A stretch of 30,819 nt of DNA from a virus, in IMG/VR virus record IMGVR_UViG_3300046028_002246, positions 1 through 30,819 of that record; one strand, 5' to 3'. This document shows, in pieces, positions 3,498-30,819 of the stretch (positions are counted from its first letter, which is position 1; each line of letters starts with the position of its first letter). Below the pieces are notes generated by a model that was not told the DNA's origin, ran no database searches, and worked only from the letters and a program-made list of their open reading frames with translations. Made by a program: the position numbers and the translations under genes.

Positions 3498-3635
3498 AGT
3501 CAGGTGGCGGAATTGGTAGACGCAGCGACACTAAGTCATTAGAAAAAGGAATGTTCTCAGAGACCTACATTACCCTAATGATAAGGTTATAAATGAGGTC
3601 GTACAAATATACAGGTTCGAATCCTGTCCTGACTA
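3498..3635 (+). tRNA. tRNA-Leu-like gene with interrupted anticodon arm
   Basis: The cloverleaf ends are perfect: acceptor stem 3498-3504 (AGTCAGG) pairs with 3628-3634, a Leu-type D arm GCG/CGC lies at 3507-3523 with GGTAGA in its loop, and the T arm ACAGG/CCTGT encloses TTCGAAT at 3611-3627. The anticodon stem GCGAC (3525-3529) pairs with GTCGT (3598-3602, one G-U), but 68 nt lie between them. The 5' end of that span, ACTAAGT, would give anticodon UAA (Leu, codon UUA, very common here) if about 61 nt (3537-3597) were removed. C at position 33 and the 8-nt variable region are atypical for tRNA-Leu. No CCA is encoded. The insert contains short interleaved helices (see findings). It may be an intron-bearing tRNA, a decayed tRNA, or a tRNA-like RNA with another role. 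Confidence 0.7.
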
Positions 3636-29379: not shown

Positions 29380-29628
29380 TTTGTTACCTTGTTACCTCAT
29401 AGGGGTTACAAAAAAAACTCAATGATACCAAGGGATTCAGAAGGTTTGTTACCTTTTACCGGGGGTAACAAAGAATATTTAAAAAATAAAAAATAATAAA
29501 ATAAAATATTTTTTTCTATTTAGGGGTGACAAAGGTAACAAAAACGCTGTAAGTCACGTGGCACTAAGAAAAGATTTGTTACCCCCTGGTGAATTAGGGG
29601 TGACAAAAAGGTAAATAGGGGTAACAAA
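29380..29628. repeat. Iteron-like array (GGGGTRACAAA), candidate replication origin
   Basis: Ten near-identical units in a gene-free stretch. In the + orientation (GGGGTRACAAA or shorter) they lie at 29402, 29462, 29523, 29534, 29597 and 29618. In the - orientation (TTTGTTACC or longer) they lie at 29380, 29389, 29445 and 29575. Pairs at 29445/29464 and 29575/29597 are inverted and could form hairpins. An A+T-rich block (29473-29520) lies in the middle and could melt. The array precedes the primase-helicase promoter. Binding by the helix-turn-helix at the helicase C-terminus or by the DnaA-like protein is possible but untested. Confidence 0.7.
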
Positions 29629-29657
29629 ATATATATAGTATATTTTTTTATAAAGTA

Positions 29658-29687
29658 TTGTTTTTTTAATTATTTATATTATATTTG
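29658..29687 (+). promoter_or_regulatory. Promoter of the primase-helicase gene
   Basis: TTG (29658-29660) and TATATTTG (29680-29687) are 19 nt apart, the same spacing as the two early promoters. Transcription should begin near 29692-29694, exactly where the first leader hairpin starts. Confidence 0.7.
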
Positions 29688-29692
29688 TAATC

Positions 29693-29790
29693 AGTTACCA
29701 TCTCACATTATAGTAACTTAAGATATTAAGCCTTATTAAATGCGTGTAGAAGTGAGATGCTACATAAGTTTTTTAAGGCTAATTTTTTTT
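29693..29790 (+). ncRNA. Structured leader with complementary hairpin loops
   Basis: Hairpin 1: AGTTAC (29693-29698) pairs with GTAACT (29713-29718). Hairpin 2: GTGTAG (29744-29749) pairs with CTACAT (29760-29765, one G-U). The loop of hairpin 1 holds CATCTCAC (29699-29706) and the loop of hairpin 2 holds GTGAGATG (29752-29759), an exact 8-base complement, so the loops can kiss. AGCCTTA (29729-29735) also pairs with TAAGGCT (29774-29780), enclosing hairpin 2 and followed by eight T, which looks like a terminator. It lies directly before the primase-helicase start and probably controls its expression. Confidence 0.65.
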
Positions 29791-29798
29791 ATATAATT

Positions 29799-30819
29799 AT
29801 GAAGATTCCAATAGAACGATGTAATAGGTTACTAGATAGTAATCTTTCATTAATACCAATAGGGGATAACAAAAAGCCTTCCATACTTTGGAAAAAACAC
29901 CAAAGTGAGATAATAAGCAAAGAGGAGTTTATCAAACATTATGATAGTGCAAAAGGAATAGGTATAATAACCGGATTTAATAACCTGGAGGTAATAGACG
30001 TAGATTTAAAAGTTTTATCTAGCCTTAAGGAACAGCAAGATTTTTGGAATGAATTGATATCTTTTTGTAAGGATAATATTGATGACTTTGATAAAAAGTT
30101 TGTAATCTATAAAACTATAAACAAAGGGTATCATATTATTTATAGATGCAATAAAATAGAAGGTAATAAAAAGATAGCCAGGCTAAAAGGTCAAACCGAG
30201 GCCATTATAGAAAGCCGTGGTATTGGTGGATATGTTTTTGTTTATGATAATCAAATCAGTGAGTTAAGCTATACCGATATTAAAGAAATAGATGAGCAGG
30301 ATAGGGAGATACTTTGGCAGATATGCAAAACTTTTAATTATCAAGAGGATACAATTAAACCGGAGCCAAAGATAGAAAAAGAGTATAAAGAACAAGATGT
30401 TAGTACATGGAATGATTATAACGAAAAAACATCAATATTTGATATTATAAGCAATGATTTTGATATAATTAGGACTTTATCCAATAAGTATATTATTAAA
30501 AGGCCAGGAAGTAAATCATTACATAGCGGTTATGTTTATAAGGATTCCGGGTGTATGTTTTTGTTTTCAACGGCTACATGTTACCCACATGAAAAGCTTT
30601 TAAGTCCTTTCGCTGCATACACTTATAAGAATCATAACGGGGATTTTAAAGCCTCATCAAGTGATTTATACCATAAAGGTTTTGGTAGTAGGTTAGTAAA
30701 AGAAATAGAGATAAAAGATAAACCAAACATTGAAATAAACGACCTTGTTTTCCCTATTGACATATTCCCTTTACCGATGCAGTCTTACATCATAGAATGT
30801 AATAAGACATTAAATATTC
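29799..30819 (+). CDS. Primase-polymerase/helicase, N-terminal part
   Basis: The gene starts at the ATG at 29799 and runs off the right end, continuing at base 3 of the window; the joined protein is 739 aa. Residues 1-150 form a primase-polymerase domain of the archaeo-eukaryotic type: VIDVDLK (65-71) with the catalytic Asp pair, TINKGYHIIYR (106-116) with the conserved His, and AIIESRGIGGYVF (135-147). Residues about 225-310 (FDIIRTLSNKYIIKRPGSKS, then FLFSTATCYPHEKLLSPFAA) are the linker domain common in such phage proteins. The helicase part is described at 1-1328. It synthesises primers and opens the origin; its control region lies immediately upstream. Confidence 0.9.
   Translation, partial: MKIPIERCNRLLDSNLSLIPIGDNKKPSILWKKHQSEIISKEEFIKHYDSAKGIGIITGFNNLEVIDVDLKVLSSLKEQQDFWNELISFCKDNIDDFDKKFVIYKTINKGYHIIYRCNKIEGNKKIARLKGQTEAIIESRGIGGYVFVYDNQISELSYTDIKEIDEQDREILWQICKTFNYQEDTIKPEPKIEKEYKEQDVSTWNDYNEKTSIFDIISNDFDIIRTLSNKYIIKRPGSKSLHSGYVYKDSGCMFLFSTATCYPHEKLLSPFAAYTYKNHNGDFKASSSDLYHKGFGSRLVKEIEIKDKPNIEINDLVFPIDIFPLPMQSYIIECNKTLNI
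30691..30816. repeat. Terminal direct repeat, right copy
   Basis: Identical to bases 1-126. The last three bases of the window (ttc, 30817-30819) differ from the left copy (gct) and are best treated as unreliable end bases or a rare variant. Confidence 0.95.

Follow-up and report, generated by a model that had tools for sequence, protein, structure and literature searches.

Sequence Comparison Points to Kissing-Loop Leaders over Putative Terminators as a Widespread RNA Control Element in Bacteroidota Phages

Introduction

The RNA I/RNA II pair of plasmid ColE1 and the CopA/CopT pair of plasmid R1 form loop-loop contacts of about 6–8 base pairs. Their partners derive from opposite strands, and the loops vary among related replicons. 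In the RepZ systems of IncI/IncB plasmids, a pseudoknot frees the ribosome site of repZ in a process that depends on a leader peptide. The put RNA of HK022 forms two hairpins of conserved sequence near the 5′ end of the early transcript, and these hairpins act on the polymerase. In phage P4, RNA pairing inside the leader transcript of the replication operon (CI RNA/seqA-seqC) ends transcription before the replication genes (PMC4825925). In Gifsy-1, one promoter gives rise to a short RNA by termination (IsrK) and to a message by read-through (PMC4825925).

Little has been described about how RNA governs transcription in phages of Bacteroidota. In this work, we analyze a leader (positions 29693–29798) in a 30,819-base virus contig, which we call the window. 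Like the ColE1 and R1 pairs, this leader and its relatives would make contacts of some 6–8 base pairs through variable loops; unlike those RNAs, both loops lie on the same strand in one leader. The long-range pairing of loops ahead of a replication gene resembles IncI/IncB RepZ. This comparison, drawn in a preliminary description of the locus, fails on the features looked at, as the leaders contain no conserved leader peptide and the pairing involves the apex of a putative terminator. As with put RNA, two 5′ hairpins of an early phage transcript would be concerned with termination, but here the loops differ in sequence, and their partner is the terminator itself. In lysogeny, P4 relies on an RNA that is processed and acts in trans, whereas the two partners considered here belong to a single short leader, which contains an intrinsic-type terminator and occurs in phages described as virulent, before many kinds of genes. 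IsrK differs in that it base-pairs with an ORF further downstream, over a stretch of about 30 nt, and has its effect on translation; a contact between a loop and a terminator apex is not described there.

RNA-controlled termination in leaders is already known, and by these comparisons the new feature would be the kissing contact with the terminator apex. Kissing loops associated with phage leader terminators were not found in the literature searched, mainly open-access journal papers, which is weak evidence for novelty. The data presented below point to a widespread RNA control element, with Bacteroidota phages often opening their messages with two kissing hairpins over a built-in stop. This element is compact and repeated. 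No more than the DNA sequence is needed to recognize and predict its defining contact, and it flags the promoters and candidate attenuators of many genes whose function is unknown.

Results and Discussion

The window leader is placed between promoter and gene, as initially described, with a Bacteroidota-type −7 box upstream and an ATG at 29799 (Table 1). Judging from this box, transcription would start a few bases 3′ of it, placing hairpin 1 at the 5′ end of the RNA. As to an antisense RNA from the opposite strand, as in IncI/IncB control, the minus strand has one sigma-70-like match (29706–29678); Bacteroidota promoters differ from this type, and chance matches are common.

Table 1. Features of the window leader and the gene that follows
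Feature	Sequence	Position	Strand	Basis
Bacteroidota-type −7 box	TATATTTG	29680..29687	+	read from sequence
Hairpin 1	AGTTAC[CATCTCACATTATA]GTAACT = AGTTAC[CATCTCAC ATTATA]GTAACT	29693..29718	+	RNA fold and homologues
Kissing octamer 1	CATCTCAC	29699..29706	+	exact reverse complement of 29752–29759
Terminator-like hairpin	outer arms AGCCTTA (29729–29735) / TAAGGCT (29774–29780)	29729..29780	+	sequence, fold, geometry
Hairpin 2 (apical part of terminator hairpin)	TGTAG[AAGTGAGATG]CTACA = TGTAG[AA GTGAGATG]CTACA	29745..29764	+	fold
Kissing octamer 2	GTGAGATG	29752..29759	+	sequence, homologues, covariation
T8 tract of terminator	T8	29783..29790	+	sequence; after TAAGGCT arm and AA
Prim-Pol (PF09250) primase gene		29799..30819	+	domain match; gene cut by contig end

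The preliminary description had reported two hairpins with exactly complementary 8-base loops. The complementarity is exact, but neither loop has eight bases: loop 1 comprises 14 nt, with the octamer as its 5′ part, and loop 2 comprises 10 nt. The third pairing around hairpin 2 and the eight T that follow it are present in the sequence. RNA folding recovered both hairpin 1 and the two-part terminator hairpin, with a folding energy that is mildly unusual (z = −1.46) in a calculation that is blind to loop-loop pairing. This unremarkable energy is what one could hold in favor of chance complementarity. Among 10,000 dinucleotide shuffles of the leader, however, the full architecture with at least six complementary loop bases appeared in 3, with at least seven in 1, and with at least eight in 1. 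The combination of hairpin, terminator, and loop complementarity in the window leader is not due to chance; together with the covariation and the two loop-blind searches described below, the shuffles refute this reading, to which we assign a negligible probability. A stable hairpin followed by a T-rich tract characterizes intrinsic (Rho-independent) terminators. The window leader has both, and it likely contains a terminator of this type. A strict consensus terminator scan with a loop limit of 8 did not list the window's terminator hairpin.

We then compared this leader with those of related primases. The window primase also matches a PHROG DNA polymerase/primase family. Its relatives (51–66% identity, with many more found by profile search) have open frames of about 740–780 amino acids when full-length. 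Their leaders often cannot be aligned to that of the window, yet they present the same order of elements: −7 box, hairpin 1, an AT-rich linker, and a terminator with an apex that complements loop 1. Examples of loop pairs are GTGGAAG/CTTCCAC (L051), TTTGGAG/CTCCAAA (L049), TGTGCG/CGCACA (L031), and ACCGCCAT/ATGGCGGT (L025). A promoter-anchored but otherwise sequence-blind scan of phage contigs for kissing pairs of 6 nt or more that are directly followed by an ORF returned 39 true complements, compared to 9, 4, and 4 for the false-complement controls (complement, reverse, same sequence). By construction, all members of this set contain TAnnTTnG 0–16 nt before hairpin 1. Since the phages were picked via the primase, the count per kilobase is not a fair rate, whereas true and false complements can be compared fairly. 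In 40 samples of 20 kb from Bacteroidota chromosomes (800 kb), we found 0 elements with a following ORF, and the idea that the device is borrowed from the host was rejected on this basis. Phages phi38:1, P12024L, and 6H contain no convincing element, hence the device is not universal in Bacteroidota phages.

Two further searches covered all viral contigs with a fixed hairpin scaffold and a loop of eight free bases. With the hairpin-1 scaffold of the window, each of the 8 distinct promoter-linked leaders, among them the window's own, has a perfectly complementary 8-base stretch further downstream. These eight leaders display six different loops (CATCTCAC, GCTCTCAC, GCTTCGAC, GGTTTGGC, CGTCTCAC, and GGTTCAAC), and in all of them the TATATTTG box precedes hairpin 1, though the search did not require a promoter. 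The remaining four matches lack the promoter box, and their best complements span 5–7 nt. The hairpin-1 stem is part of the search pattern, so its invariance in these homologues is not independent evidence; the inner stem GTAG/CTAC of hairpin 2 lies outside the pattern, and it is kept in 7/8 homologues. An 18-codon ORF that opens at 29740 in the window lacks its start codon in L197 and L196 and contains an early stop in L198 (read by eye). Attenuation by a leader peptide was discarded because this ORF is not conserved among the leaders with this scaffold.

The second search used a scaffold present in Flavobacterium phages described as virulent, among others. Perfect 8-nt complements were present in 21 of the 25 distinct matches, with four different loops, while the false-complement controls gave 0. 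One of the 21 positives has no obvious −7 box, and the other 4 matches are located in unrelated sequence. Cultured phages are among the carriers. The loops GTGGAACG in mumin, GTGAGACG in hemulen, and GTGAGAAG in morran each have their matching partner, and the cultured Tenacibaculum phage Gundel_1 contains one leader with the scaffold of the window, about 20 nt before an annotated anti-repressor gene. The two interchangeable loops of the element allow a direct mutate-and-compensate test. On the strength of these comparisons, we assign the window leader to a recurring family of 5′-leader RNAs in Bacteroidota phages.

The preliminary description had made its proposal depend on compensatory changes in related phages. 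Such changes were found, and no kissing pair was broken. In the family of the window (A11, 7 sequences), 6 of the 8 kissing pairs are changed on both sides; the corresponding counts are 3/8 for A7, which has the second scaffold, and, in further groups, 3/7 for A3 and 1/7 for A4. Every cell of these four kissing helices holds a standard pair (100% paired), and in total 13/30 pairs are changed on both sides. The covariation score of A11 was reached by 0/500 shuffles, and sliding the partner abolishes covariation in the kissing helices. The aligner had set one leader (L196) a single base out of register, for which reason A11 does not include it; the complement within L196 is perfect. Two loops that pair, with the pairing kept by compensatory change, make a kissing-loop RNA, and we regard the kissing structure itself as nearly certain. 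The A4 leaders (L067, L069–L072, L074, L076, L077) are peculiar in that the complement lies beside an extra inner hairpin instead of at a simple apex. Two members of A4 are nearly without a T tract, and their kissing pair still covaries.

The kissing pairs also change more readily than the stems around them. In the pooled families, 13/30 kissing pairs but only 4/43 pairs of neighboring stems have changed (Fisher p = 0.0014), a count of stems that omits the A11 hairpin-1 stem because it was fixed by the search pattern. Without A11, the trend stays but is not significant (p = 0.08), and since related sequences are not independent, both p-values are guides only. Loops that are more changeable than the adjoining stems are not explained by pure structural support. 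Variation of the loops on stems that stay is one reason to consider that the leaders act in trans. The terminated leader would then be a small antisense RNA directed at sibling leaders, either for self-limiting feedback or for the exclusion of related phages, and the loops would have diverged for separate specificities. P4, where leader RNA pairing ends transcription before replication genes (PMC4825925), provides a precedent, and among the leaders found the loops within one phage all differ. On the other hand, loops of random sequence would be expected to differ within a phage as well, the invariance of the A11 hairpin-1 stem is due to the search pattern, and kissing in cis enjoys a large advantage in local concentration. 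Lysogenic immunity in particular does not fit: mumin, hemulen, and morran are among phages reported to be virulent (PMC7077304), and bacterial genomes hardly contain the primase family, with 4 loci among 84,980 species. Immunity in the style of P4 is disfavored on these grounds, with the host and lifestyle of the window's own phage judged from its relatives. Overall, we consider action in trans unlikely. We are similarly doubtful about the broader idea of a modular recognition code, in which scaffolds would be kept and moved between genes and phages while octamers are swapped, each leader or phage answering to its own RNA. If the loops do act between RNAs, they would constitute a recognition system among virulent phages, and under such a code co-infecting lytic phages would escape having their early genes terminated by one another, or would impose such termination.

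The geometry of the leaders bears on how the kissing contact may work. In 33 elements, the complement is centered in the terminator, at 0.52 ± 0.06 of its length, a position that was not imposed by the scanner. In the same elements, the complement has an unpaired probability of 0.87, compared to 0.32 for the whole hairpin. Because the complement is unpaired at the terminator apex, kissing and terminator look compatible and could coexist, which argues against a simple either-or switch. From the earlier suggestion that the two forms are alternative or cooperative states, the alternative part is thus not supported. The end of hairpin 1 is separated from the complement by 37 ± 6.6 nt, and the distance from the hairpin to the start codon is 9–27 nt in all but two of the listed elements. 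A correlation between linker length and stem height (rho = −0.57) was set aside, because a one-base shift of the stem boundary moves both values in opposite directions.

We propose that these leaders are kissing-loop terminators that act in cis. Transcription would begin just before hairpin 1, which would fold first and display its loop. About 37 nt further on, the apex of the intrinsic terminator would display an exact complement of 6–8 bases of loop 1, and the two loops would kiss in cis. The terminator would then end the RNA some 10–27 nt upstream of the next start codon. The resulting loop-loop helix of 6–8 base pairs could draw the flanks of the loop together and so help the terminator hairpin to form or to hold. 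In this way, the leader may serve as a throttle: many transcripts would stop after about 100 nt, and expression of the gene would depend on the extent of read-through. Sequence and comparison show the pairing and its covariation, the apical position, the T tract, the location of the leader behind a promoter and ahead of a start codon, and the lack of such elements in the chromosomes sampled; we infer that termination occurs, that kissing favors it instead of opposing it, and that something regulates it. We give this proposal, that kissing aids termination and throttles read-through into the gene, about even confidence.

The opposite effect is also conceivable. Hairpin 1 could seize the emerging terminator apex and delay closure of the stem, so that kissing would mark an antiterminated state with the gene switched on. 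The complement does emerge ahead of the 3′ arm of the terminator, which would allow the kissing helix to form first, and the fairly constant distance between hairpin 1 and complement is what a kinetic device might need. Yet the complement occupies the apical loop and not the arms of the stem, so that both structures can exist together. To our knowledge, known antiterminators compete for stem bases, unlike the apical contact described here. This role of the contact strikes us as improbable.

Neither loop-blind set was selected for T, and both have T-rich tails. The eight bases that follow the stem contain on average 5.6 and 5.9 T in the two sets, and five or more T in 24 of the 27 loop-blind matches. 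The T tract is poor in L208, L206, L209, L072/L074, and L118, and such members indicate that termination may not be the common function. These few leaders, and the hairpin close upstream of the start codon, would agree with a folded RNA that shields the message or the short RNA from nucleases, or that tunes translation, with the terminator being incidental. Given the T tracts of most loop-blind matches, we find such a role very unlikely.

The element had been tied to a replication gene, a link that did not hold, as other members of the family precede non-replication genes. Kissing leaders are followed by primases, DUF3127 proteins (which carry a single-strand DNA binding protein annotation in other phages), a NUMOD4-HNH endonuclease, T5orf172 and DUF3223 proteins, and small unknown ORFs. 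Because genes of so many kinds follow, we regard the kissing leader as a general device that is not bound to replication. Nor is it essential to the primase gene: when 68 distinct primase leaders were put to a loose test that ignores T, only 34 qualified, against 13, 9, and 5 in the controls. The leader before the endonuclease gene (L055, 11655–11790, GTCGTCG/CGACGAC) is at least 99% identical in 34 Flavobacterium phage records.

Iteron-like repeats of AGGGGTNACAAA and its reverse complement immediately precede the primase leader in the window (29399–29631). Several relatives carry different phage-specific repeats at the corresponding position (GTGTAAAGT in L003, GTGTAACATGTTACAC in L004, GTGTGCAAATTTGCACAC in L005). 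These repeats are possibly a replication origin. A replication primer or origin RNA was considered for the leader in view of the repeats, but rejected as other members precede non-replication genes.

A second type of leader occupies the last ~110 bases before the primase start in L082, L088, L091, L097, L098, L125, L132, and L110. These leaders share the core GGTTGG..GGCA..CCGTAAAA, and the loop of a terminator-like hairpin complements a segment between the T tract and the start codon, directly after the former (for example, TATACGTT/AACGTATA, GCACGT/ACGTGC, AGCGTT/AACGCT). This second type gave no match to Rfam in the loci searched. Rfam 15 found only tRNAs in the window and in L110, and no match at the kissing leaders searched, even at permissive E-values. 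The window contains a tRNA gene at 3498–3635 (Rfam, 39.5 bits) that ARAGORN missed; it has about 60 extra bases in the anticodon arm, which may represent an intron or mark a tRNA-like remnant.
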